12,148 nucleotides of DNA from Candidatus Altimarinota bacterium (lineage in GTDB: Bacteria > Patescibacteriota > Gracilibacteria > RBG-16-42-10). The notes under the pieces were generated by a model that made no database searches, was not told where the DNA came from, and saw nothing but the letters and a program-made list of their open reading frames with translations. The DNA lies in the NCBI GenBank assembly GCA_017984655.1, contig JAGNZB010000036.1:1-12148 (forward strand). Reading direction: 5' to 3'. The first letter of the stretch is position 1, and every line of letters begins with the position of its first letter. Of this stretch, positions 216 to 12,148 are shown in pieces. The position numbers and the translations under genes were made by a program.

Positions 216-3200
216 ATGGGTTTTGGTAATACTGGCAAGGTCAATGTTGGTGGAGCGCCGAATCCGGCCCCAGTTGCTCCTATAAAACCTAGATCATCTC
301 TAGTCCCCGAAGCTCTCACCAGTCATCCAGCTCTCACAGTAGTGCAGAGATCAGCTCGTCCCTTATTGACAGCAGACTTATTGATTGATCGCAATAAGTG
401 TTTTGTGGACGGGTTCAAAGATTTTAGTATTGTAGCAGCCAAGGAACAGGTAACAGTCTATGATCTTCGGGGTGAGGCTGAGGCAACTTACAGGATGCCA
501 GAACCTTTACCCAATGCATTTCTCTTCAAAACTAGCCCATCAAGATCTGAGGCTGCAATAATCATTGCTTCTACTAAAGGGAACTGTCCTATTTGTAAGG
601 CAACATTCTCTCCCAATGAGGCTGATCATCCTGATCGTTGGCGTTGGGAGCATAGTCAAAACACTGGTGCCCTATCTATGGGGCGTAGCGGTGCAGTGGG
701 AATGTTGAAAATTACCAAAGATGAGCTCAAATTTACGGTTTCTGGTGCTCGGGAATCCGTTTATCATGATCAACTATTTGGTTACGAGAAAATCGGTGAC
801 AATTTCTTTTTAATGAATTCTGCTGTTGGTGTTGATGATGTGTACTATGCCAAAAAAGAAAGGCCCAAGAAAATTACAAAAGTGAGCATATTTGAGCCAT
901 CAGGTGGCAACCCTGCTACGGCCAGCCGCTCTGATCTTACATTGCAGGAGGGATACCCTTCTTTAGCTCATCTTTCTGCAGTCGGTCATGGGACAACGTT
1001 GATGATAGCTGAGGCTGACGGTAATGTGGTCTTTATTGATAGTACTACTGGTCACGAGGTAGCCAGAGTGCCCAACTTTTATCATCTTCATTACGATACA
1101 GCAAACAATCAGATCAAAGGTTTTGATGGCCAGGGACATCTCGTAGTCTGTACAATCAATATTCCTCAACTAACAGCAATCCAATCCGCTGCTGCCCAGG
1201 TCAGAAATCTAGCCAAAGTAGATATTGGTGCCTTAGTAGCCGATGAGCGTGGACAGGTGGAGCGGATTATGGACATGACGCTTCGGGCTCAGTTAGCTAC
1301 TCGGCAAGGCGAAATATATGCGCAATTCCTTGCTCCTTTATCGCGCTGCACGACTCTGGCCGCGATTAATCAAGTTGAGACGCAAGTTGCCAAGGCAAAA
1401 GCAGATTTGATTGCGAAGCATGTGGCTCCAGAAGCCGCAGATATATTGTTAGAAATGGTGACGCTCGAATTGGAGGGTAAGAAAAAAGCAGTTATTGCTA
1501 CAGAGATGCGTCAGAAACTGGATCTTGTTGAGAATATTCTGGTGCAAGGAATTAGTATGACTAGTATCGTGGATATTCAGACGAAGATAAATGAGATTAG
1601 CACCAATGAGCAATTCCTTGATCTAAGTGAGAAGGGACGTTTGCAGGGGTGTGAGCGAAAATTTCAACTAGACATCCATGCACTCTACCAAAGAGCGACC
1701 GACGAGATCCGTCGTGACCTTGATAGTATTCACAATTTGATTACGACTAGGTTGACTGCTGTTGGTTCAAATCAAGTAGCATTTGATCGTTGGTGTCGAG
1801 ATGAGTGGCCAGTACAACAAAGAAGATTGCGAGCGATGCAAAGTAGCTGTCCAATTGGGGCTGTTGATGCGTATAAGCTTATTGCGGATGCGATCGAGCA
1901 GTCTGAACAACAAGTGAATGATGCTCGTCTCCAATTTGATCAGGCAGCTGAGCTTGCACGGTTAGCTACCGTCAGTCATGAAGCAGCTATGATCGCGACT
2001 ACAAAGGCAGATATCAAGATGCTTGTTACTCACATTGGTCGTCAGCAGTTTAGCGATGTTGCCCATGGGCAAGCTTGGGTCACGCAACAATCAGAATATT
2101 TGATGATCCTTGATTCAATTACTGGCCTCAGACAAAGAAGTCCTGCTCGTGCAGATGAACTAGAGCGTGTGTTGTTGACTGAGGTTGCGAGCGCTCTCGA
2201 TCGAAAGCAGCGTATGCAGCAAATGACTGTCACTGCTGGTAGCCATCGGATGATTCGTTTTGGTCAGGAAGAATTTCCGGTATGGGAACAGCCGTTGGTG
2301 CAAGCCCCAAAAGCAGCAGTGGCTGTTGATGTGGTGTTTGTTGCTGAACCAAATCAAACCGGTGTTCGTCCCAATGATCGTATGGGAAAGATCATGTTGG
2401 CTACTACTACGGATGGTAAAGCTACAGCTACGGTGGATATGTGGAGCGATGCTGGTCGTCATGCTGACAGTCTCAGAATGGGAGCTAGTACGTATCGTGG
2501 TGCTGAAATTCCTGCAAGTATCATGTCAGTTGCTGACTACAAGCGGTTCAAAGCAGACCAGACAGATTGGAACAAAGGGCCAGTTCTATCAGCACTCCGT
2601 CTCAAGGAGCATGCCCTGAGAATGGCTTTACATGCACTGCATGACCAAAGGAAAAATATCGCTCCAGCAACTGGGCTGAGAAAGATGGATGCTGCCTGGG
2701 AAGCAAAGTACCAAGCTGCGTATGATGAGTTAGCCAAATTCTGTAGTGAACATCATATTGCCCTAATCCGTCATATTGATCGAATCAGTCCTCAGCTAAA
2801 AGTTGGCAAGGCTCCTAAGAGTCTGGGGGGAGTGCCTGAGTGGCAACCTCACTGGGTGCTGGACGGTGAGACGGAGGGCATGCTTGAGCAGCTAGCAACT
2901 GCACTGAAGATGCAAGGGCGTCTCAAAGAAGGTCTTGTCAATCTCAAAGGTCATGCTGGAACCGGTAAAGATGTCTTGATCAAGATGTTTTGTAGTCTAG
3001 CGCAGCGGCCATATTTTGCATTTGATTGTAGTAAATGGACGACTGAGTACGAGCTGGCTGAAGATGTGCAGCTTGTGGCGGTGGATGGGGTGACTACTAC
3101 TGTCAAAGTACCATCTGCAGTATTGGCAGCGATTACCACACCGGGGGGTGTTTGTTATTTTAATGAGTTTAATGCGATGCCAGAGCAATCACAAATCTTC

Positions 3201-3881
3201 TTGCACGCATTGTTTGATGAGAAACGTTCTATGACAATCAAGACTCGCTCAGGAGCGACAATCAAAGCCGATCCCAATGTTTTGTTCGTTTCTTCAATGA
3301 ATCCTGGTTATCCTGGTACTTTTCCAGTGCAGTTTGCGACAAAAAGTAGAACGGTATCACTCGAAGTGGGCTATCCAGCTGAAAAGACTGCTGACGGCAA
3401 ATATAGTTCTACTGAGGCTTGGCGTATCGCTCGTGGTGTTGAATCATTGTTTCGTTTTACGCTCAGTGGTGATAGTACCAACAATGACTTTGTCAAAATC
3501 TGGAATAGTGAGATGAATCTCTCTACTGCTACTGATACTCCAATTATTGATGAAGTTGCTAAATTTGATCTTAAAGTAGTGGCAGCATTGGTGCAATTTG
3601 GAAACAAATTGCGCGCTGAGTTCATGCGTCATTATGACAAAAGTGCCCGAGCCCCTGGTGGTGCAAAACCTCTGCTCGTGACTCAGCCATTGACTGGCCG
3701 TGAAATGCGTCGTTTTGCTGATCGTCTCAATCAAATACCAGATGGTGAAAAACTGACAGCAGATCCGGAGAAGGTGGCTCGACAGTTGATTTATGTTCTA
3801 TTTCTCACGCACATTGATAATATAACTGACCGTATGGCTATTTGGGATGCTATGAACCGCTGGACAGTAGAAAAGTTATAA
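216..3881 (+). CDS. Large MoxR-type AAA+ ATPase with beta-rich and helical N-terminal regions
   Basis: This is probably the ATPase half of a MoxR/VWA pair, which in known cases (CbbQ/CbbO, NorQ/NorD, RavA/ViaA) remodels or activates a target protein. The AAA+ module is at the C-terminus: Walker A GHAGTGKD (912-919, Lys918), a Walker B-like VCYFNE (979-984) with Asn983 where Asp is usual but Glu984 kept, sensor 1 SSMNPGYPGT (Asn1029), a likely Arg finger Arg1045, and a sensor-2-like GREMRR (from 1161). Residues 1-50 are Pro-rich. Residues 50-330 are beta-rich with a propeller-like GNVVFIDSTTGHEVARV stretch near 269. They include CPIC (124-127) followed by His138 and His146, a possible zinc site. 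Residues 340-900 are mostly helical. There is no signal peptide or membrane segment, so it is likely cytoplasmic. Most MoxR proteins are far shorter (about 300-500 residues). The ATG at 216 is the first possible start, because an in-frame TGA lies at 195. A remote link to DUF3686 'DNA repair ATPase' proteins, which share a similar plan, is possible but untested. Confidence 0.85.
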   Translation: MGFGNTGKVNVGGAPNPAPVAPIKPRSSLVPEALTSHPALTVVQRSARPLLTADLLIDRNKCFVDGFKDFSIVAAKEQVTVYDLRGEAEATYRMPEPLPNAFLFKTSPSRSEAAIIIASTKGNCPICKATFSPNEADHPDRWRWEHSQNTGALSMGRSGAVGMLKITKDELKFTVSGARESVYHDQLFGYEKIGDNFFLMNSAVGVDDVYYAKKERPKKITKVSIFEPSGGNPATASRSDLTLQEGYPSLAHLSAVGHGTTLMIAEADGNVVFIDSTTGHEVARVPNFYHLHYDTANNQIKGFDGQGHLVVCTINIPQLTAIQSAAAQVRNLAKVDIGALVADERGQVERIMDMTLRAQLATRQGEIYAQFLAPLSRCTTLAAINQVETQVAKAKADLIAKHVAPEAADILLEMVTLELEGKKKAVIATEMRQKLDLVENILVQGISMTSIVDIQTKINEISTNEQFLDLSEKGRLQGCERKFQLDIHALYQRATDEIRRDLDSIHNLITTRLTAVGSNQVAFDRWCRDEWPVQQRRLRAMQSSCPIGAVDAYKLIADAIEQSEQQVNDARLQFDQAAELARLATVSHEAAMIATTKADIKMLVTHIGRQQFSDVAHGQAWVTQQSEYLMILDSITGLRQRSPARADELERVLLTEVASALDRKQRMQQMTVTAGSHRMIRFGQEEFPVWEQPLVQAPKAAVAVDVVFVAEPNQTGVRPNDRMGKIMLATTTDGKATATVDMWSDAGRHADSLRMGASTYRGAEIPASIMSVADYKRFKADQTDWNKGPVLSALRLKEHALRMALHALHDQRKNIAPATGLRKMDAAWEAKYQAAYDELAKFCSEHHIALIRHIDRISPQLKVGKAPKSLGGVPEWQPHWVLDGETEGMLEQLATALKMQGRLKEGLVNLKGHAGTGKDVLIKMFCSLAQRPYFAFDCSKWTTEYELAEDVQLVAVDGVTTTVKVPSAVLAAITTPGGVCYFNEFNAMPEQSQIFLHALFDEKRSMTIKTRSGATIKADPNVLFVSSMNPGYPGTFPVQFATKSRTVSLEVGYPAEKTADGKYSSTEAWRIARGVESLFRFTLSGDSTNNDFVKIWNSEMNLSTATDTPIIDEVAKFDLKVVAALVQFGNKLRAEFMRHYDKSARAPGGAKPLLVTQPLTGREMRRFADRLNQIPDGEKLTADPEKVARQLIYVLFLTHIDNITDRMAIWDAMNRWTVEKL

Positions 3882-3888
3882 ATACTGT

Positions 3889-6800
3889 ATGAAGAATATT
3901 GCTGAGGGCATAGAGTGGAAAAATTACGGCAAGGCATTCAAAGTGCAGCTGGAAGCACAGCATGCTGCGTCCGGTCTGCCAGTTGTGCCTGGTGCGCGCT
4001 GGGGATTTTTCTATGCTGATGGTACTCCAGCTTCCTGGGCCCAAAAAATTCTTGATGGTGATCTAAATGCTGTCCATCTTGGCGAGCAGATGCGTCCTAA
4101 AGCAATGATTTATGACCAGTCGCTAGTAGCTGATCCAGTACTGAGGCCCACTATTGTACCTACAGTACGCGCCACTGCTTATATAGCTAGTAATACTGAT
4201 TATGACCGTGTTGCACGTTTTGTAATGGACTGCAAAGAAAAGCATCTCTCCGTTCCTGAGATCTTTACTATTCATGATAGTTTGGCCGAAAATGCTTTGT
4301 ATGCCCAGGCCTTACAAAAACTTGGTTCTACTGGTAGAAAAGATATCAACACGGTAGTTGCCAATCGTGCACATGTCATTGCTGATGAACTGGCTGCGAC
4401 TGTCGGGATCGATAGAATTCTCAAGAGCTTGCAGCTCTCATCAATGGTCAATGACTTTGGTAACTCGCCCAGCTTACTACCTGCGCTTGCCTGTCTTAGT
4501 GATGCCGAGCAAGCGATGGTCCAAGTGCTCTTTGAGCCCTACCGTCGATTTGTAGCTTCGTACGATGAACCTTCATGGCAGGCAGTAATTGAGCCACTAC
4601 TAGCGACTATTCCACCACGACCACCAAAACCAGAAGAGGAGCAAGCGATCAATGATCAGTTTGAACAACAAGTCACTGAACAAGACAACCATGATGCGAT
4701 CGCTCCTGAAGATCGTGATGAGTATGACACGCCACCATTACCGCCAGATAGTCCTCCTCCAGGGCAGGGACCTGCGGAAAGTAATGACAAACTGCCAGAT
4801 ACGATTTTCTTCCGAGTCGCACCAAAGCTCCCTGGGCAGGCTCCTTTAGGTGGGTACTACATCACTGGTCGCAATAGCTATTATGATCGTGATACTAAAA
4901 CCTGGTCCAAACGGAAGCAATTAACTGCTCATGTAGATAAGCCGTTGGCTGCTGATAGATATATTCTGACTGCCAATCTCAAGCCTGGCATTACCGCAAT
5001 CCCATTACCACAAGGGTATGGCATTGTAGCTACGTCAGCTGCTAATATTAGCTTTTCTGAAGATCAATATGGTTGTGTCTATGCCAATGTGAGTCAGTTT
5101 GTGACTGCCAAAATTGAGTTCGGTAAGCTCCAAGGTGCGGTCGGTATGGCACCACCAATACCAGATGATATGGTTCCCTTGCATCCTGGTGTCTATGAAC
5201 AGAAAATTGAACAATTACTGCAATGTCTCCAAGGAGATCATGTCACCCGAGCGCATCGTGCAGGCAAATGGATCAAAACTAATAAATCATATCCCAAAGA
5301 CTTAAAGGCCGCTCATGCAGTGCAGTTGCGTTTGCGTACCCAGTCTACAAAAGATAATTACTTGCCTACTTTAGCAGCTTCACCAGAACTGGAGTGTTAT
5401 TCATCGGCCACTTTATTTTTGGATTGGGCTAGAAGATTGGGCATTCCCGCTCGTTTGGTGCTCGGACACATGATTCAAAAGGCTCAACAAGGACAATGCT
5501 TCATGACGAGTGAAACAGGGCATGCTTGGGGTGAAGTGTGGGATGGTAAAAAGTGGCGTCGTATTGATGTCACCCCGCCAAAGAAAAAAGATGACGAAGA
5601 ACAAGATGGTGACAAAGGGGATTCACCACCAGAAGAAGATATGGACAATGCTCAAGATGATGCGATTGATGTCTCTCCAGAGCAAGATCTTTCCGAGAAG
5701 ATCCAAGACCGCCAAGATCAAGCTGCCAAACAGATGGAAGACGCTATCTCTGATGCCGAGATGCAGTCTGCGAAACAAAATATGGACAAAGTCCAAAAAG
5801 CAATGGAACAAGCCGAGAAGAGGAAAAAACAGCTGGAACAACAAATCAATCAAGCTCAGTCATTTCAAGATCTCAACAATAAGCAGCAAGAACAGGCTGC
5901 CGATCCACAACTCTTTGATGAGATGCATGATGAGTTGCAAAAAAAGTTAGACCAAAAAAAAGAAGCAATGAAGGATGCATTGCAAAAGCAGCTCGATAGT
6001 TTAGCAGAACAGGGTTTTATCGAAGATAAAGATCGTGAGCAGCTTCAGAAGGAAATTGATCAGGAGGGAAATGCTCGTAAGCTGGATAAATTAGCTGAGC
6101 GGGTCAAATTGGAGTCGAGTTTGGAAATGGCATATGAGAAAATTGTCGAAGACCTGACTCCGTTGGTGGATGAATGGTATCAGAAGTTCTTGGAGATATT
6201 GCCAAAGCAAAAGGAGCCTGACTTTGATTTTGATACCGTAGCACGTTCTTCACATTTGGATCGTCATGCGATTACTCGTCCGCGAGCGATCACGACTGGT
6301 CTCTATCGTAACCCGCGTGAATACGAGGAGAATCTAATTCCGAAGTTTATTGCGTCCATTCTTGTCGATGTCAGTGGTTCGATGAATCAACCACGTGGGC
6401 GTCTTGGTCAGCCAAAAATTCTGATTGCTTTGATGACGTTAGTTTTTTATGCTGAGCTTTTTAGTAAGATTGCGAAAGAGCATGATTATCTCCGTTTTGC
6501 TATCTCGGTATTTGACGATACATTGCGAGTGATCAAGGGGTATGAACAAAAGTATGATGAGAATATTTTTTATGATTATGATCAAGGAGCAAATGCAGTG
6601 AGGACTACAGTGAAGGCTCGTATCATGAAAGCAGTCCAGGCTGGTACGGGTACCAATATGTTGGATGCCCTGGTCGAGACTGCCCAGCGACTGACAGATG
6701 TGGTGCAAGGTGATCGTGAGTATGCGTCAGCTCTCTATTTGATTGGTGATGGTGGCGATAGTTATGGTAACGAAAGGTTAATCAAAAAGCTGGTTTCACC

Positions 6801-6996
6801 AGACTATCGTGATGAATCAGGTGAACATATGTACGCAGCATTAGTTCTTGGTAATGAGGATGAGCGCCGTATTTTGGCAGCGATGTTTGGCGATCAACGC
6901 ACTGCAGTGGCTGATGACTTTGAAAGTATGATTACGATCGCCATGCAACAATTCCAAGAAGATATTGTCGGTTATCTAGAGGCAAAAATGCGGTAA
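3889..6996 (+). CDS. Transglutaminase-like / coiled-coil / VWA fusion protein
   Basis: This is the probable partner of the AAA+ protein encoded 7 bases upstream; the spacing suggests one transcript and perhaps translational coupling. An N-terminal globular part (1-235, unrecognised) is followed by a Pro/Glu-rich linker (241-303) and a beta-rich segment (304-430). Next is a transglutaminase-like core (about 495-565) with a complete Cys503/His545/Asp560 triad, in the contexts LECYSSA, GHAWGEVW and RIDVTPP and with the family's RxLGIPARLV strand. Then come an acidic linker, a long Lys/Glu/Gln-rich coiled coil (about 600-745) and a C-terminal VWA domain (about 820-1035). The VWA metal site is intact: DVSGS (827-831), Thr922 in GTGTN, and Asp954 in GDGGDS. 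No signal peptide or membrane helix is visible, unlike membrane-bound TgpA-type transglutaminases. The transglutaminase-like domain may act as a protease or only bind; the sequence cannot say. There is no Shine-Dalgarno before the ATG. Domain calls are firm, biological role unknown. Confidence 0.85.
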   Translation: MKNIAEGIEWKNYGKAFKVQLEAQHAASGLPVVPGARWGFFYADGTPASWAQKILDGDLNAVHLGEQMRPKAMIYDQSLVADPVLRPTIVPTVRATAYIASNTDYDRVARFVMDCKEKHLSVPEIFTIHDSLAENALYAQALQKLGSTGRKDINTVVANRAHVIADELAATVGIDRILKSLQLSSMVNDFGNSPSLLPALACLSDAEQAMVQVLFEPYRRFVASYDEPSWQAVIEPLLATIPPRPPKPEEEQAINDQFEQQVTEQDNHDAIAPEDRDEYDTPPLPPDSPPPGQGPAESNDKLPDTIFFRVAPKLPGQAPLGGYYITGRNSYYDRDTKTWSKRKQLTAHVDKPLAADRYILTANLKPGITAIPLPQGYGIVATSAANISFSEDQYGCVYANVSQFVTAKIEFGKLQGAVGMAPPIPDDMVPLHPGVYEQKIEQLLQCLQGDHVTRAHRAGKWIKTNKSYPKDLKAAHAVQLRLRTQSTKDNYLPTLAASPELECYSSATLFLDWARRLGIPARLVLGHMIQKAQQGQCFMTSETGHAWGEVWDGKKWRRIDVTPPKKKDDEEQDGDKGDSPPEEDMDNAQDDAIDVSPEQDLSEKIQDRQDQAAKQMEDAISDAEMQSAKQNMDKVQKAMEQAEKRKKQLEQQINQAQSFQDLNNKQQEQAADPQLFDEMHDELQKKLDQKKEAMKDALQKQLDSLAEQGFIEDKDREQLQKEIDQEGNARKLDKLAERVKLESSLEMAYEKIVEDLTPLVDEWYQKFLEILPKQKEPDFDFDTVARSSHLDRHAITRPRAITTGLYRNPREYEENLIPKFIASILVDVSGSMNQPRGRLGQPKILIALMTLVFYAELFSKIAKEHDYLRFAISVFDDTLRVIKGYEQKYDENIFYDYDQGANAVRTTVKARIMKAVQAGTGTNMLDALVETAQRLTDVVQGDREYASALYLIGDGGDSYGNERLIKKLVSPDYRDESGEHMYAALVLGNEDERRILAAMFGDQRTAVADDFESMITIAMQQFQEDIVGYLEAKMR

Positions 6997-7036: not shown

Positions 7037-7083
7037 AGTTTTTTTAGGGGGGGCTCATCTCACACGAGGAGACACTCCCCATC

Positions 7084-7170
7084 ACTTTTACATTTACCTT
7101 CACGTTTACCTTTCATGAGCGAGGAAGTCCAGAAAGAAACGTAAAAGTAAAAGTGAACGTGAAGGTAAAA
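7084..7170. repeat. Composite repeat 1: inverted hexamer arrays around a conserved core
   Basis: The left arm (7084-7114) is built of TTYACN hexamers and the right arm (7137-7170) of the complementary NGTRAA hexamers. The strongest pairing is 7093-7109 with 7153-7169, 16 of 17 bases. Between the arms lies a core starting ATGAGCGAGGAAGTCC (7115 on). From 7115 to 7145 it matches the core of composite repeat 2 (10197-10227) at 27 of 31 positions in the same orientation. The DNA or RNA can fold into a long hairpin. Its place between convergent genes would suit a two-way transcription barrier, but no T-run supports an intrinsic terminator. No protein is encoded. Confidence 0.8.
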
Positions 7171-7181
7171 CAGCACAGCTA

Positions 7182-7210
7182 AAGGATCCTGCCTCGCATC
7201 TCGGTTCAGC
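7182..7210. repeat. Shared module of composite repeat 1 (degenerate hairpin)
   Basis: The stretch with GGATCCTGCC, then CATCTCGGTTC, lines up with GGACCTTGCC, then TAGCTCGGTTC at 10109-10136. In the second copy CCGAG/CTCGG forms a clean hairpin. Here the left half has become CCTCG, so the hairpin is lost. The module follows the hexamer core in this copy but precedes it in copy 2. Confidence 0.55.
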
Positions 7211-7232
7211 CTGCTTCCTATCCCCAATCAAT

Positions 7233-7260
7233 CACCTTTACCTTCACTTTTCCCTTTACT
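7233..7260. repeat. Extra left-type hexamer array
   Basis: A further run of TTTACC/TTCACT/TTTCCC-type hexamers without a matching right arm on its far side. TTTACCTTCAC at 7237-7247 is an exact inverted match to 7159-7169, so it competes with 7093-7109 for the same right arm. It is followed by GGTCCC (7267-7272), which also borders the right-hand heptamers of composite repeat 2. Confidence 0.6.
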
Positions 7261-7274
7261 ATTATGGTCCCTTC

Positions 7275-7916
7275 TTAATCCTCATCTCTATAAAAACAGT
7301 GTCCGCACTCAGCTTCGATATCGTCTAGTGCTTGTATTACAAAGTTCTTCAAGAAGTCTGGTAGTGTCTCGTATTTCACTTTGGCGAGTAGCCATTGTCT
7401 CCAAATGGCTACAGTGATCTTTCGTGTTCGGTAATAGTCTAGTGTGGCGTGTGGGACCGCCAGGGTGGGAATGAGTTTGTCCATCAAGTTTACAAACATG
7501 GCTTCCAGTGAAGATTTGGGCTCATACTCACTAATTGCCGCCTGCATATCTTTGAACTCTCCGTACTGCTCTCTCAATTTCTGGTAAGCAACAGCTTCTT
7601 TTTCTTGCTTGGCCACTAAGTTCTCAGCTGATCCATGTGCATCAGTATCTCCAGCAAACACCTCTACCAAGTCATGGGTGAGAGCAAATTTGAGAATAAG
7701 CTCGTCTTTGAGTCCGAGGTGATACTGTTCATTTGCCGCCCAACACGCCATTGCTAGCTGGTAGCTATGTTCAGCATCATTCTCGAAGTGTCCTGGTCGA
7801 TAGCTATTGGCCCGATAGGTTTTGGCGAATGCCATTGTTAGTAGCACAATGGGGAAGACTTTTTTCATAGGATGGTGATACGGATCGTTTGGTGAGGAAT
7901 GCGAGTACGGTAGCAT
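7275..7916 (-). CDS. HD-domain phosphohydrolase (YfbR/HDDC2-like)
   Basis: This is a metal-dependent HD-superfamily hydrolase, probably acting on a nucleotide such as a 5'-deoxynucleotide, judged by similarity to YfbR/HDDC2 proteins. The visible signature is ENDAEHS (His50), THDLVEVFAGDTD (His81-Asp82, Glu85, Asp90) and Asp146 in NLMDKLIP, giving the usual H...HD...D metal ligands. The length of 213 residues fits the family. The start is uncertain. The ATG at 7916 adds a 16-residue His/Pro/Ser-rich leader unlike family members, and the ATG at 7868 (MKKVFPIVLL) is at least as likely. Neither has a Shine-Dalgarno. It lies 19 bases after proS on the same strand, so co-transcription is likely. 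Its stop codon sits where a degenerate copy of the heptamer repeat would be expected. The fold is clear; the substrate is inferred. Confidence 0.85.
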   Translation of the reverse strand: MLPYSHSSPNDPYHHPMKKVFPIVLLTMAFAKTYRANSYRPGHFENDAEHSYQLAMACWAANEQYHLGLKDELILKFALTHDLVEVFAGDTDAHGSAENLVAKQEKEAVAYQKLREQYGEFKDMQAAISEYEPKSSLEAMFVNLMDKLIPTLAVPHATLDYYRTRKITVAIWRQWLLAKVKYETLPDFLKNFVIQALDDIEAECGHCFYRDED

Positions 7917-7935
7917 TCCGGTACTAGAGGAACAA

Positions 7936-9192
7936 CTAGGAGTGATTCTGAATGACGGAGATGATATCGCTGAGCGGGTGAGTGCTACTGTCTTTGCTAG
8001 TGCGTCCTTTTAGCTCAAACACCGCCTTCTCAAAAGTTCGTTTAGAAATAGTGACGCGTAGCGGACAGCCAATCAGATCAGCGTCAGCAAATTTCTCACC
8101 AATACTAACACCACGACGATCATCATAGAGGACTTCGATTTGGTTGTCTGTGAGGAGTTCGTAGACTTGATTGGCTTGGTCCAAGATGTTTTGATCATCA
8201 CTATTGAGCACTACCAAATGTACCGTAAATGGCGCAAGTGATCGTGGCCACACAAGGCCAGTATCATCTGAAAGTAATTCGGCTACGGTGCCAATCAAGC
8301 GGCTGATACCGATACCATAGCAGCCCATGACAACAGGCATTGGTTTACCTTCACTGTTGGTATATGTCAGTCCAAAGGCGTCTGAGAACTTGGTTTGGAG
8401 CTTGAAGATATTGCCGACCTCGATCCCCTTATCTTCTATCAGTTCAGGATTGTGACATTGTGGACAGCTGTTTTGTTCAGTAATGATCTCGCGATTGATG
8501 GCGATATGGCAGGATCGACAGATGTAGATGATATCTTCACCGGCATCACATAAGGTTTGGAATTCATGAGAATACTTTGAGAAGGCACCACCGGAAGCAT
8601 ACGTCATATAGGTCTTGTCTCCGATGCCAGCTTCAGCGAAAATCTGTTTGTAGGCTTCAGTTTGAATCTCATAGTAGCGATCAAGATCAGCCTGGTCAGT
8701 ATGAAATGAATAAAGATCTTTCATCAGAAACTCCTTACCCCGTAGTAGACCTGACTTGGCACGTTTTTCATCGCGAAACTTATTCTGAATCTGATAGACC
8801 GCTTTTGGTAAGTCTTTGTAGCTATGTACAAATTTCTGCAGTAGTGGTGTGACTACTTCTTCATGCGTAGCACCGAGGGCGTACTCAGACTTGGTCCAAT
8901 GGGTGATGAAGCGTACTAGGCTATCCATGCTATCCCAACGCTGAGTTTGTTCATAAATTCCTTTTGGCTGCAGGGATGGCATTAGTACTTCGATCCCACC
9001 ATGGATATCCATGTGTTTGCGGACCAGTGTTTGGGTCTTTTGCAGAACACGGAGCCCAAGAGGCAAAAAAGTGTAAACTCCAGCCATGAGCTTGTCTACA
9101 AAGCCAGCACGGATGAGCAGTTGAGCATTCTTTGATTCTTCGTCCTTGCTAGGATCACGAGTGGTTTTGATCAATGAATTTGTAAAACGCAT
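7936..9192 (-). CDS. proS: Prolyl-tRNA synthetase, short form without editing domain
   Basis: It charges tRNA-Pro with proline in the cytoplasm. Class II signatures are present: motif 1 around LPLGLRVL (43-50), GATHEE (107-112), motif 2 FRDEKRAKSGLLRGKEF (139-155), and motif 3 GCYGIGISRLIG (290-301), followed by an anticodon-binding domain. At 418 residues it is about 150 shorter than the E. coli enzyme. The INS editing domain (YbaK-like), which normally splits the middle, is absent, and two Cys pairs that usually flank it are close together (Cys225/228 and Cys243/246). They may bind zinc. Short ProRS of this kind is known from alphaproteobacteria and mitochondria. Editing of Ala-tRNA-Pro would need a separate protein, not seen here. 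The ATG at 9192 begins MRFTNSLIKTTRDPSKDEE, the expected N-terminus. A leader of about 215 bases precedes it. Confidence 0.96.
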   Translation of the reverse strand: MRFTNSLIKTTRDPSKDEESKNAQLLIRAGFVDKLMAGVYTFLPLGLRVLQKTQTLVRKHMDIHGGIEVLMPSLQPKGIYEQTQRWDSMDSLVRFITHWTKSEYALGATHEEVVTPLLQKFVHSYKDLPKAVYQIQNKFRDEKRAKSGLLRGKEFLMKDLYSFHTDQADLDRYYEIQTEAYKQIFAEAGIGDKTYMTYASGGAFSKYSHEFQTLCDAGEDIIYICRSCHIAINREIITEQNSCPQCHNPELIEDKGIEVGNIFKLQTKFSDAFGLTYTNSEGKPMPVVMGCYGIGISRLIGTVAELLSDDTGLVWPRSLAPFTVHLVVLNSDDQNILDQANQVYELLTDNQIEVLYDDRRGVSIGEKFADADLIGCPLRVTISKRTFEKAVFELKGRTSKDSSTHPLSDIISVIQNHS

Positions 9193-9293
9193 AAATAAAG
9201 TTAGAAATTTGTAAGAATGTATTGCGTATACTTGCTGTTTTCTCTGTGCTTACTTTTGGTAACGTCCCACTTCCATCACAAATAGCCCCTCTG

Positions 9294-9355
9294 AGCCCTA
9301 AGTGCTGAAGAGTTCTGTTTGTACGTGTACAGTCTTTCCTTCACCGCTTAGCGCT
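9294..9355 (-). ncRNA. Structured element in the proS 5' leader
   Basis: Read on the minus strand, AGCGCTAAG (9355-9347) pairs with CTTAGGGCT (9302-9294) at 8 of 9 positions. Inside that, TGAAG pairs with CTTCA, and a short apical stem forms from CTGT/ACAG or from the exact palindrome TGTACACGTACA. The result is a long stem with internal loops lying between the predicted promoter and the proS start. No U-run follows, so it is not a plain terminator. It matches no riboswitch or T-box I can recognise. It could be a cis-regulatory RNA or an RNA-stability element. Confidence 0.4.
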
Positions 9356-9415
9356 GGCTAGTCTTGCTGGGGAAGAGTGTGGGGTACTGAGAAAGTGTGT
9401 GCTTCATACCGAGAT

Positions 9416-9443
9416 ACTATAGCAAATCAGTTTTAGTTGGCAA
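9416..9443 (-). promoter_or_regulatory. Promoter of the proS-HD unit
   Basis: On the minus strand, TTGCCA (9443-9438) and TATAGT (9421-9416) are separated by 16 bases; the -35 matches TTGACA at 4 of 6 positions and the -10 matches TATAAT at 5 of 6. It starts 18 bases beyond the end of the preceding gene. Transcription would begin near 9409, giving a leader of about 215 bases before the proS ATG. This is the best sigma-70-like promoter in the window. Confidence 0.5.
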
Positions 9444-9462
9444 TTTTGTATTCAGAAATCGC

Positions 9463-9927
9463 CTATCCGTTCTCTGGCTTGGGCTTGAGATTGGCCCTGC
9501 TCTGAATAATCTGATCGAGTCTTGCTTGAGGATTGCTCCAGTCGTCTTCTTCATAGGGACTCGCTGAGCTCATTTGTTGGTAGAGCTTCCACTGACCAGC
9601 TACTTGGTGAAATCTAGCGACTGTGATCGCGACTTGGGTAGTTTCCTCACCATTGATACCGATCGTGATTGAGGACACAAAATAGTAGGCAGCCCAGTCA
9701 CCATCCTCACGAACCCCAATCCCTTTGTCCTCACTGATCTCAGGATAGAGCTCAGTCTTCATCCATTGTTTCTTTTCCGGTGAGGCCCACAATGACCGAA
9801 ACATCTCCGAAGCACTTGCCGGTAGCCCAGTTTGATCCAATAAGCCCAGTGCCGCATCGGCAGTCGGTTGATCAAGTGCCTGTCGGAAAGAAAGATAATG
9901 CGTGAATAGTTGTTGTTGGAGAGACAT
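9463..9927 (-). CDS. Hypothetical protein, 154 residues
   Basis: I do not recognise this protein. The N-terminal 60 residues look helical. A central beta-rich part follows (about 70-120), with alternating strands DWAAYYFVSSITIGI and TTQVAITVARFHQVAGQWKLY, and then a charged C-terminal helix and tail. A helix pair followed by a curved sheet ending in 'GQWKLY' recalls NTF2/SnoaL-like domains, but that is a weak impression. There is no signal peptide or membrane segment, so it is likely cytoplasmic. It is flanked by composite repeat 2 upstream and by the proS promoter downstream, and probably forms its own unit. The ATG at 9927 gives a plausible N-terminus (MSLQQQLFTHYLSF) but has no Shine-Dalgarno. 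That it is coding is fairly safe, because the frame is long and has balanced composition. Confidence 0.75.
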   Translation of the reverse strand: MSLQQQLFTHYLSFRQALDQPTADAALGLLDQTGLPASASEMFRSLWASPEKKQWMKTELYPEISEDKGIGVREDGDWAAYYFVSSITIGINGEETTQVAITVARFHQVAGQWKLYQQMSSASPYEEDDWSNPQARLDQIIQSRANLKPKPENG

Positions 9928-9962
9928 TGAAGTGAGGGAGAGTTATGTTGGTGTACTGGGGG

Positions 9963-9990
9963 AATTATAAATTACAAATTACAAATTATA
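9963..9990. repeat. Four AATTAYA heptamers at the outer edge of composite repeat 2
   Basis: Exact 7-base units in register: AATTATA, AATTACA, AATTACA, AATTATA, followed by a degraded unit AATGAAA. They share period and first five bases with the AATTAGG units that begin 16 bases later. They overlap the likely promoter of the 154-residue gene. Confidence 0.85.
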
Positions 9991-9992
9991 AA
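9964..9992 (-). promoter_or_regulatory. Candidate promoter of the 154-residue gene, inside the heptamers
   Basis: On the minus strand, TATAAT (9969-9964, a perfect -10) lies 17 bases after TTTATA (9992-9987, 4 of 6 matches to the -35). The start of transcription would be near 9957, about 29 bases before the ATG at 9927. A second TATAAT created by the other AATTATA unit makes the exact choice uncertain. Confidence 0.35.
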
Positions 9993-10005
9993 TGAAACGG
10001 GAGTT

Positions 10006-10040
10006 AATTAGGAATTAGGAATTGGTAATTATGAATTGTG
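10006..10040. repeat. Five AATTAGG-type heptamers in composite repeat 2
   Basis: Units in register: AATTAGG, AATTAGG, AATTGGT, AATTATG, AATTGTG, decaying from left to right. They are the inverted counterpart of the CCTAATT units at 10277-10304, so composite repeat 2 is bounded by heptamers pointing towards each other. Confidence 0.85.
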
Positions 10041-10090
10041 GCTGCCGGAAGCTTGGATTGTGGGCTGACCTACATCCTTTTTTCATCCAG

Positions 10091-10136
10091 CCATCCTGAG
10101 CGTAGCCGAAGGACCTTGCCGAGTAGCTCGGTTCCC
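10091..10136. repeat. Dispersed-type repeat with hairpin inside composite repeat 2
   Basis: CCTGAGCGTAGCCGAAGGAC (10095-10114) resembles the CCTGAGCGAAGCGAAGGAT-type intergenic repeat common in many bacterial genomes (recalled, not searched). It is followed by CCGAG-TAG-CTCGG (10119-10131), a perfect 5-base-pair hairpin with a 3-base loop. The part from 10109 to 10136 recurs in degraded form at 7182-7210. Confidence 0.55.
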
Positions 10137-10161
10137 CACTTTCTCCCATAATCAAAGTTCA

Positions 10162-10252
10162 TTTCACCTTTCCCTTTACTTTCACCTTCACCTTGTATGA
10201 GCGAAGCAGCCCGGAAAGAAACGTAAAGGGAAAAGTAAACGTGAAAGTAAAA
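10162..10252. repeat. Composite repeat 2: inverted hexamer arrays around the conserved core
   Basis: The left arm (10162-10192) is made of YTTYMC hexamers and the right arm (10222-10252) of GTRAAR hexamers. The segment 10163-10179 pairs with 10223-10239 at 15 of 17 positions, including 11 consecutive bases. The core begins ATGAGCGAAGCAGCCC at 10197 and ends in GGAAAGAAACGTAAA. It matches copy 1 at 27 of 31 positions in the same orientation. No coding potential is evident. Together with the flanking heptamers and the dispersed-type repeat it fills the 371 bases between the peptidase and the 154-residue gene. Confidence 0.8.
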
Positions 10253-10276
10253 AACACAACTAAGTGCCCCCCTGGT

Positions 10277-10304
10277 CCCAATTTCTAATTCCTAATTCCT
10301 AATT
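10277..10304. repeat. Four inverted heptamers overlapping the peptidase 3' end
   Basis: Units in register: CCCAATT, TCTAATT, CCTAATT, CCTAATT, the reverse complement of the AATTAGG type. The last unit contains the stop codon of the C39-like gene (TAG, 10301-10299 on the minus strand) and its final Asn codon, so the repeat defines the end of that protein. Confidence 0.85.
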
Positions 10305-11018
10305 TGAGCCACTTTTTGTCTTCGAGTACACCACGATTCCTTTATGAGCGAAAAATTTCTCAAAATCTACAAATGCTATTGCTGCATGCCTTTGTGTACT
10401 CGTCTTGGTGCCGCTGGGATTGTGGAAGTAAAGTAATTGCTTATGTTTGTCATATCCTGTGATCAGGACTAGGTGTCCACCTTTCTTGGTTGGGGTGTTT
10501 TGGGGATTACGGATTTCATAATTGACTGATGCGATCACATAGTGGTGCTGCGCGGTATGATGGAGGATTTGTGCTATTGAGAGTGCTGAGATTGCTTTTG
10601 CCTCCAGTTGGTAGGTTTTTTTTACAAATCGACAAAATGGTTTGTAGAACAAGCCTGGTGAACTGGCGAGGGGTTTTTGGTAGCCACCATAGCTAAGACA
10701 TTGTTTGGCTAGCGTCACTAATGGTACTTGAATGCCTTGTTTGGCGAGGATCATTTTGAGGCAGGCCATGCCACAGCCATTCCAGCTCCACTCTGCATAT
10801 TCATCTGCGGAAGCAGCACCTGATCGTCGCCACTGAGGGTCGGCTTGAGCTTCTATCGTCTTGGCTAGTATCTGCTCAGCCAATGCTGGGGATTCCCACT
10901 GACTATAGTAAGGAATTGCAGTAATTTTGAGGGCTTGGGGATCATTGTGGGACTGAGCAGTAGCCTTGAAGTGAGAGTAGGTCAGGCGAAGATGCTGGAG
11001 GATTTGAGCTGGTCTCAT
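10299..11018 (-). CDS. C39-like cysteine peptidase (Peptidase_C39_2 type)
   Basis: This is a papain-fold, probably hydrolytic, protein of the C39-like superfamily. The sequence shows WSWNGCGMACLKM with the likely nucleophile Cys82, KKGGHLVLITGYD with His182, and LYFHNPSG with Asn200 at the position of the third catalytic residue (Asp in many relatives). The length of 239 residues fits a stand-alone domain; there is no transporter fusion, signal peptide or membrane helix. The ATG at 11018 begins MRPAQILQHL and lies 9 bases after the D-Ala-D-Ala ligase stop on the same strand, so the two are probably co-transcribed. A role in wall or peptide processing is suggested by the neighbour only. The last codons (Asn-stop) come from a heptamer repeat, so the original C-terminus may have been replaced. 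It has no Shine-Dalgarno. Confidence 0.8.
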   Translation of the reverse strand: MRPAQILQHLRLTYSHFKATAQSHNDPQALKITAIPYYSQWESPALAEQILAKTIEAQADPQWRRSGAASADEYAEWSWNGCGMACLKMILAKQGIQVPLVTLAKQCLSYGGYQKPLASSPGLFYKPFCRFVKKTYQLEAKAISALSIAQILHHTAQHHYVIASVNYEIRNPQNTPTKKGGHLVLITGYDKHKQLLYFHNPSGTKTSTQRHAAIAFVDFEKFFAHKGIVVYSKTKSGSN

Positions 11019-11027
11019 ACATGATGG

Positions 11028-12148
11028 TTATGCTGCTTTGGCTCCGCCGACTTTTTGTAAGATCTCAGAATGGAATGTATAAGTGGTTTGTTGATTGGCT
11101 GCAAATTTCTCATCAGCGAGAGCGATCAGTTTGGTAATGAGATCGACTCCTGATATACCCTTTTTGCGCCAGTTGTGATGATAGAGACTACCTGGTAGCG
11201 TGTTGATTTCGTTGACATAGACTTGGCCGGAAGCGCTATCGATCAAGAAGTCGATGCGTGCAATACCCGAGCACCCCAGGGTCAAAAATGTCTGCTTACC
11301 ATATCGCTCCACTTGCTCAGTGAGCTCTGGGGCAATGTTGGCTGGTAGCTCACTATAGTTGCTATTGGCACCACTTCCCTTTTTACCACCGCCGAGATAC
11401 TTGTCATTGAAATCAAAAAACTCAGTTTTGTTCAGCGGTCTCTCGATCAATCCCAGTTCGAGATCATTATTACCCATCACTGGCAAAGTGACTTCGATCA
11501 AGTTCTCGACCCCTTCTTCTACCAGTACCTTCTCGTCATAATGGAAAGCGACTTCGAGGGCATTTTGGAGCTCAGAGAATTGTTTGATTTTGGTGATACC
11601 GATACTTGATCCCAAGTGTACAGGCTTGATAAATAGTGGAAACTTGAGCTTCATGATCTTGTCTGTCCACGCTTTGGGATCACGCTCCCAATCAGTCTTG
11701 GTAAACCAAACATAAGGCACGATTGGTACCTGCTCAGCTGCCAAGACTTGCTTTGCTAGTACTTTGTCCATTGCTACTGCTGATGCAAACAGATCACAAC
11801 CAACGAAAGGAATATTGGCCAATCGCAAGAGTCCCATCAGACTACCGTCCTCTCCAAAAGTGCCATGCATTGATGGGAAGGCGATATCGATTTTGACGGT
11901 CTTTGGCAACAATCCGGGCCAGATTAACTGGAGACCTTGATCAAATGCTAGCTGTACTTTCTTTTGTTTGGTGAGCTGGGTTTCAAAGTCAGATTGTTTG
12001 AAGTAGGCTAGGTCATTCATCGCTTGATCAGCGTACCAAGAGCCATCCTTGGCAATGTACACCGGCCAGATCTCAAACTGATTCGTAGCCTGAAGCGACT
12101 GAATAATCGGCGTGTGCGCTGTAATGATCGAGACATCATGTTCTGCAC
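11028..12148 (-). CDS. ddl: D-alanine-D-alanine ligase, 5' end beyond the window
   Basis: This ATP-grasp ligase joins two D-alanines for peptidoglycan precursor synthesis in the cytoplasm. Family motifs visible on the minus strand are AEHDVSIITAHTP next to the window edge, HGTFGEDGSLMGLL (about 11867-11830), the ATP-binding KPVHLGSSIG (about 11629-11597), DKYLGGG (about 11412-11391) and NEINTLPG (about 11213-11190). The Tyr in DKYLGGG is typical of ligases that make D-Ala-D-Ala rather than D-Ala-D-lactate. A GTG at 12062 could be taken as the start, but the frame stays open upstream and encodes the conserved AEHDVS strand. The gene therefore runs off the right edge, and only the first few tens of residues are probably missing. 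A Gly/Lys/Ser-rich stretch follows DKYL. The C39-like gene follows 9 bases after the stop. The assignment is firm. Confidence 0.95.
   Translation of the reverse strand, partial: AEHDVSIITAHTPIIQSLQATNQFEIWPVYIAKDGSWYADQAMNDLAYFKQSDFETQLTKQKKVQLAFDQGLQLIWPGLLPKTVKIDIAFPSMHGTFGEDGSLMGLLRLANIPFVGCDLFASAVAMDKVLAKQVLAAEQVPIVPYVWFTKTDWERDPKAWTDKIMKLKFPLFIKPVHLGSSIGITKIKQFSELQNALEVAFHYDEKVLVEEGVENLIEVTLPVMGNNDLELGLIERPLNKTEFFDFNDKYLGGGKKGSGANSNYSELPANIAPELTEQVERYGKQTFLTLGCSGIARIDFLIDSASGQVYVNEINTLPGSLYHHNWRKKGISGVDLITKLIALADEKFAANQQTTYTFHSEILQKVGGAKAA

Follow-up and report, generated by a model that had tools for sequence, protein, structure and literature searches.

The two genes at positions 216 to 6,996 of the stretch analyzed here (contig JAGNZB010000036.1 of a Candidatus Altimarinota bacterium; the whole stretch of 12,148 nucleotides is hereafter “the window”) encode an AAA+ ATPase carrying a predicted beta-propeller on a helical stalk and a partner protein in which a transglutaminase-fold enzyme domain is joined to a VWA domain. 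By analogy with NorQ/NorD and CbbQ/CbbO, we consider it an even call that the pair is a single ATP-driven protein-remodelling machine of that kind, fitted with additional client-handling parts. An earlier note on this DNA had described a two-gene AAA+/transglutaminase-VWA system, and this was borne out both by the domain anatomy and by the pairing of the genes at all 15 other loci found. Both open reading frames (ORF1, 216 to 3881; ORF2, 3889 to 6996) are complete and lie on the forward strand, as do all features of the pair given below, and the 7-base gap between them (3882 to 3888) is consistent with a single operon.

ORF1 (1,221 amino acids) begins with a predicted WD40-like beta-propeller with 24 strands in the structure model (residues about 36 to 317; positions 321 to 1166), followed in the model by a long helical stalk (residues about 350 to 670; 1263 to 2225) and by a small beta domain and further helices (residues about 678 to 866; 2247 to 2813), which precede an AAA+ module of the CbbQ/NorQ fold (residues about 867 to 1218; 2814 to 3869). 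The predicted propeller and stalk make plausible the earlier suggestion that the beta-rich and helical N-terminal region acts as a sensor. The ATPase had also been called MoxR-type; its AAA+ character was confirmed, but its type was not, as the module is of the CbbQ/NorQ (AAA_5) kind and AAA_3 gave no match. CbbQ was the closest AAA structure (Z 22.3), and the closest structural relatives of the docking modules of ORF1 and ORF2 include NorQ and NorD. A hairpin at residues about 949 to 966 (3060 to 3113; strands 924 to 931 and 934 to 941 in model numbering, where position 1 is residue 26) would sit where NorQ has the helix-2 insert, an element described as contacting the VWA finger (PMC13036017). 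A dynein-like linker in ORF1 was also considered, as the alignment of certain dynein chains begins at about residue 569 of the model, and was rejected because the extra aligned part is helical and does not rise above the level of helical bundles.

The nucleotide site of ORF1 carries a double change that the earlier note had missed. Walker A reads GHAGTGKD (residues 912 to 919; 2949 to 2972), with Asp replacing the usual Ser/Thr, and Walker B reads YFNE (residues 981 to 984; 3156 to 3167), with Asn replacing the usual Asp and the catalytic Glu kept; the aligned residues of CbbQ are the canonical GKS and LDE. All 110 listed ORF1 homologues carry GHxGxGKD and 109 of them carry Y[FL]NE (the pattern failed to find one), departing from the canonical GK[ST] and DE. 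Because the substitutions are paired (Ser/Thr to Asp, Asp to Asn), we infer that in the ORF1 family the acid that binds Mg lies in the P-loop instead of in Walker B. The Walker B Glu, Asn1029, Arg1045 and Arg1162 are invariant in a 24-row alignment, and their positions suggest their roles.

ORF2 (1,035 amino acids) starts with a domain that is mostly helical in the structure model (residues 1 to 265; 3889 to 4683), continues with a TgpA-like beta domain and transglutaminase core (residues about 267 to 567; 4687 to 5589) and long helices that probably form a coiled coil (residues about 610 to 770; 5716 to 6198; model and weak matches to coiled-coil proteins), and ends in the VWA domain (residues about 820 to 1034; 6346 to 6990). 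The catalytic residues, assigned by triad position, are Cys503 (5395 to 5397), His545 (5521 to 5523) and Asp560 (5566 to 5568); this Cys-His-Asp triad is invariant in 19/19 sequences, and Transglut_core was recognized in 17/17. The metal ion-dependent adhesion site (MIDAS) of the VWA domain (Asp827, Ser829, Ser831, Thr922, Asp954) is complete in the window, so that both sites are intact as the earlier note had claimed; across the family, DxSxS is present in 16/17, the Thr in 15/17 and the Asp in 17/17. ORF2 probably lacks a membrane segment and is soluble, again as proposed earlier. Ahead of the first VWA strand lies a hairpin (residues about 773 to 816; 6205 to 6336; strands 773 to 778 and 811 to 816, with a low-confidence tip) that, judged from the model, would occupy the place of the NorD finger: the range matched by ORF2 in NorD starts at NorD residue 376 to 382, ahead of the finger at 403 to 448. 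The hairpin stretch is alike in most members of the family and divergent in the locus of a same-class genome (L060).

Two exact peptide patterns run across 84,980 GTDB genomes (relatives with changed motifs or on contigs of <3,000 bases are missed) returned 14 loci. In 14/14 of these an ORF2 relative of 1,024 to 1,124 amino acids follows the ORF1 relative on the same strand, with a gap of 4 to 81 bases by ORF calls, except in L015, where the first possible ORF2 start would make the genes overlap by a single base and the chosen start gives a gap of 5. L060 likewise holds the pair (1,291 and 1,047 amino acids) with a 7-base gap. Relatives of the two genes are therefore adjacent and in the same order in 15/15 other loci, and they are not routinely unlinked, a point on which the earlier note had asked for a check. 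Titles of the scan loci name Parcubacteria, Taylorbacteria, Uhrbacteria, Roizmanbacteria, Levyibacteriota, Peregrinibacteria or Patescibacteria in 11/14, and only “bacterium” in L013, L017 and L020. One of the 110 ORF1 homologues (P0087) has a source name, Syntrophomonadaceae, that lies outside Patescibacteria, possibly through a binning error. A partial ORF1 homologue with 94% identity across 78% of the query comes from a source named Candidatus Gracilibacteria. A profile of ORF1 matched in 2/286 genomes of the phylum, namely the window's own genome and one with a different AAA. The pair is rare and patchily distributed. A count for ORF2 from a protein search (four matches among about 8,000 scored candidates) was rejected as a measure of rarity because the search missed relatives known from the loci, a word-sampling limit. 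Distances of ORF1 and ORF2 are correlated (Spearman 0.78 to 0.96), and their quickly built trees resemble each other, with long branches and several forks left open; shared ancestry alone would also give both results. The trees group Roizmanbacteria with Levyibacteriota and place two Peregrinibacteria together, while the window and L060, from one class, are apart.

Divergence is uneven along the two proteins. Over 14 rows, mean identity was lowest in the propeller (0.29), followed by the stalk (0.31), transglutaminase (0.51), VWA (0.56) and AAA (0.60) regions. Among close relatives the contrast is sharper and divergence is concentrated in the propeller: the window and homologue P0005 are 84% identical overall but 50% identical over residues 101 to 200, and the identity of L010 to L017 is 0.60 in the propeller and 0.81 to 0.94 in the other regions. 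In the comparison of L010 (9170 to 13021) with L017 (6150 to 10010), both protein identity and identity at fourfold sites fall sharply across roughly the N-terminal 420 residues of the ATPase, with 35/105 fourfold sites identical up to residue 420, 199/318 beyond it (Fisher P = 2.5e-7) and 241/374 in ORF2; this P value is optimistic because the split at 420 was chosen from the profile and scored best among the splits scanned. L011 and L017 show a weaker break (35/91 versus 174/304, P = 0.0018). The pattern suggests to us that one lineage has exchanged its N-terminal module. Positive selection acting on the propeller was considered and rejected; where it could be computed, the ratio of nonsynonymous to synonymous substitution rates (dN/dS) was 0.18 for L010/L011 and 0.13 for L009/L010 (dS 2.5), which is raised and far below 1.

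As a remodelling machine, the pair would work as follows. ORF1 would assemble into an AAA+ ring, presumably a hexamer, on which the VWA domain of ORF2 would dock with its finger-like hairpin in the pore, and the ring would act through the docked VWA, both by analogy with NorQD. The MIDAS metal would contact the client, while the stalk-borne propeller would select and hold the target protein, and the TgpA-like transglutaminase-fold cysteine enzyme would cut it or modify it (by deamidation or crosslinking) under the strain of the motor. Such a machine might serve quality control, the envelope or a conflict. For NorQD it has been proposed that the motor twists the VWA co-factor, with the MIDAS or the linker touching the client (PMC13036017, PMC9976466), and an intact MIDAS in NorD is reported to be required for active nitric oxide reductase and dispensable for NorQ binding (PMC9976466). 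Several observations weigh against such a machine. The docking rests on analogy, and the genes next to the pair reveal no client. With the paired Walker change, ORF1 might hydrolyse ATP weakly or not at all. The triad marks the fold and a likely activity, and does not tell a protease from a transamidase or a deamidase. The DxSxS stretch is missing in L010 (although the frame of this transglutaminase-VWA copy, at 13029 to 16145, is open), and Thr922 is missing in L021 and L022. The ORF2 model is of moderate quality (mean predicted local distance difference test score [pLDDT] 78.8, predicted template modelling score [pTM] 0.44, 19 sequences), and Foldseek searches with the ORF1 model returned dynein chains first by E-value, with very large root-mean-square deviations. 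Finally, among distant homologues the stalk nearly matches the propeller in divergence (0.31 versus 0.29), so that few close pairs carry the propeller signal, and L010 and L011 show no break (80/134 versus 189/319).

Literature searches, with subscription papers mostly outside their reach, brought up no description of this architecture. NorQ/NorD shares with the window pair the AAA+ fold, the adjacency of the genes and, judged from the model, a hairpin at the place of the helix-2 insert, and NorD resembles ORF2 in its C-terminal VWA domain and MIDAS and perhaps in a finger-like element. However, NorQ amounts to an AAA module alone (about 270 residues), whereas in ORF1 propeller and stalk contribute about 860 more, and NorD is described as an N-terminal domain, a linker and the VWA, to which ORF2 adds the transglutaminase module. 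CbbQ/CbbO offers the closest AAA structure and a partner with a C-terminal VWA, and differs from the pair in the same ways as NorQ/NorD. ORF1 thus falls outside the NorQ/CbbQ type by its Walker motifs (Walker A ending in Asp, Walker B with Asn) and its domain make-up, although it may share the type's way of working. A reading that stays closer to these systems, and overlaps with the remodelling machine, takes the pair as a dedicated maturation chaperone that inserts a metal or cofactor or assembles a complex as NorQD does, with the transglutaminase-fold domain only binding or trimming the client. The kinship of the docking modules with NorQ and NorD fits this, as do the mostly conserved MIDAS and the need of nitric oxide reductase for that of NorD; yet the invariance of the triad argues for catalysis, and among the 25 commonest of 151 neighbour families no metalloenzyme turned up repeatedly, a weak negative because only these 25 were shown and client genes can lie elsewhere. 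We regard this chaperone role as improbable. Even less probable is that the pair is a soluble, fused descendant of a MoxR-DUF58-transglutaminase locus serving the cell envelope. Loci of this kind (MoxR-DUF58-TgpA) also link AAA, VWA-like and TgpA-type functions, clusters of AAA-ATPase (MoxR), DUF58 and transglutaminase genes are described for bifidobacteria (PMC12067865), and the transglutaminase module of ORF2 is TgpA-like. In such loci, however, the genes are separate and the transglutaminase domain of TgpA is periplasmic, whereas in the window the domains are fused, probably soluble and paired with an AAA of another kind; the source genome (about 93% complete) gave no match to TgpA_N, AAA_3 or another transglutaminase core. 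FtsW/RodA, MreB or FtsZ/tubulin genes flank 5/15 loci (L010, L016, L019, L020 and L021; gene names partly our own reading), where a hand estimate from copy numbers in 39 genomes expects <1 over about 170 kb of flanks, but this neighbourhood is only a lead because the families were picked after looking and 0/16 of the broader loci described below show it. A dcw-like run appears to lie near the pair in L009, and in L019 the pair stands between ftsA-like and ftsZ-like genes.

Another reading that overlaps with the remodelling machine is a conflict system, for defence or inter-microbial rivalry, in which the propeller would recognize an invader protein, the motor would set a threshold and the transglutaminase-fold enzyme would be the effector or a processing protease, a scheme already put forward for MoxR-vWA ternary conflict systems; we hold this to be possible but doubtful. 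It would suit the rarity and patchiness of the pair, the divergence of the propeller and its one exchange-like break, which falls in a locus (L017) with a type II methyltransferase and restriction enzyme downstream of the pair. MoxR-vWA pairs also form the core of candidate conflict systems in the literature (the ternary VMAP, iSTAND, FtsH, beta-propeller and TERNS3 types), some with transglutaminase-like peptidases (PMC7159879, PMC8195603); these are described as rare in VMAP proteins (PMC7159879) and as circularly permuted in TERNS3 systems (PMC8195603). As described in these two papers, the shared ground is a MoxR-clade AAA with vWA, and the differences are several: beta-propellers in some of these systems are C-terminal to vWA, whereas that of the window is on the AAA protein; the P-loop of the propeller and FtsH types is GXXXTAKS rather than GHxGxGKD; and the systems have a third component and variable effectors, typically C-terminal to vWA, of which the window pair has neither as far as the loci reach. 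In ORF2 the VWA ends the protein, and the enzyme is N-terminal to it and constant. In the ORFs listed for the 15 loci (≥100 amino acids, read by eye; contig ends cut some), no third gene recurred next to the pair, and no Pfam family occurred in more than four of their 142 neighbouring proteins (120 to 899 amino acids).

Defence annotations around the pair were sparse. No PADLOC model matched ORF1, and matches to ORF2 were confined to the helical region (residues 566 to 774). Among the 142 neighbours, 16 PADLOC families matched at 1e-10, and tracing, which scanned 10 of the 142 and left four PDC-S04 models, PDC-S07, PDC-S24, SoFic and the mad models untraced, led to a plain defence system only for the L017 pair; the NYN and HEC-09 matches were one protein in L019, and the DndA and SspA matches one L011 protein read as an ordinary cysteine desulfurase. 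With a restriction-modification pair in 1/15 loci, defence genes are not regular neighbours, and the clustering that the earlier note had proposed checking for was not found. Nor was a full-length copy present in phage or plasmid records or IMG/VR contigs as searched. A viral or plasmid origin was rejected: ORF1 gave only AAA-core matches (≤18% query coverage in phages and plasmids) and ORF2 none in viral contigs, and top matches in a viral protein structure library were mostly AAA-type. That the trees keep some relatives from the same host group together also speaks against a conflict system, though the window and L060 do not group.

Looser relatives of the pair occur elsewhere in Patescibacteria. 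An ORF2 profile matched in 55/379 genomes of the phylum, most matches being weak and covering the transglutaminase core or coiled coil only. Sixteen broader stretches were read (13 places from these matches, two further places and a second place in genome G218), and a P-loop gene was adjacent or one gene off in 11/16 (L061 to L066, L070 to L073 and L076), with Pfam AAA confirmed for the five of those genes tested; L067 and L068 are at contig ends, and L069, L074 and L075 have no P-loop gene nearby. A D.SGS motif was present in L061 to L068 and L070 and absent from L069 and L071 to L076, so L061 to L066 and L070 combine the VWA motif with a close AAA gene as the window does. In contrast to the window, the proteins of these pairs are 838 to 930 amino acids where complete and their ATPases have GKS or GKT P-loops. 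Seven aligned proteins were homologous to ORF2 in the beta domain and transglutaminase core (hhalign 99.9%); the VWA was not matched, although all seven have their own DKSGSM motif. Five ATPases of the broader loci align with ORF1 in the AAA part only (79% probability). Together, these match patterns indicate that transglutaminase-VWA/AAA linkage recurs with different motors. Some broader loci have an extra gene of about 260 to 340 amino acids, with two copies flanking the ATPase in L073 and L076.

The source genome comprises 1.05 Mb in 92 contigs. Recoding of TGA was considered and the standard code kept, as prfB is present; neither ORF1 nor ORF2 contains TGA, none of the seven window genes uses it as a stop, and it occurs inside frames in two same-class genomes. 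Downstream of the pair, an intergenic region (7082 to 7275) contains four overlapping inverted-repeat pairs with arms of 19 to 39 nucleotides, 77 to 90% complementary. The remaining genes (7275 to 12062) are on the opposite strand and encode an HD-domain protein, a 418-residue class II tRNA synthetase read as the proline type, a 154-residue protein, a C39-like peptidase and a D-Ala-D-Ala ligase.

A bolder reading, which we think unlikely, is that Patescibacteria have here a new class of machine that uses ATP to drive proteolysis or protein modification, with a propeller-addressed AAA+ ring whose Mg-binding acid is shifted to the P-loop, a VWA co-factor bearing a transglutaminase-fold site, and retargeting by propeller exchange. 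The paired Walker change in 109/110 homologues makes it possible to ask directly how much flexibility AAA+ motors have in binding magnesium. If the reading is correct, the pair would stand for a new design of programmable protein-processing machine, in which an AAA+/VWA remodeller brings its own enzyme domain and an address domain that can be exchanged, and such a machine would occur in bacteria with very small genomes.

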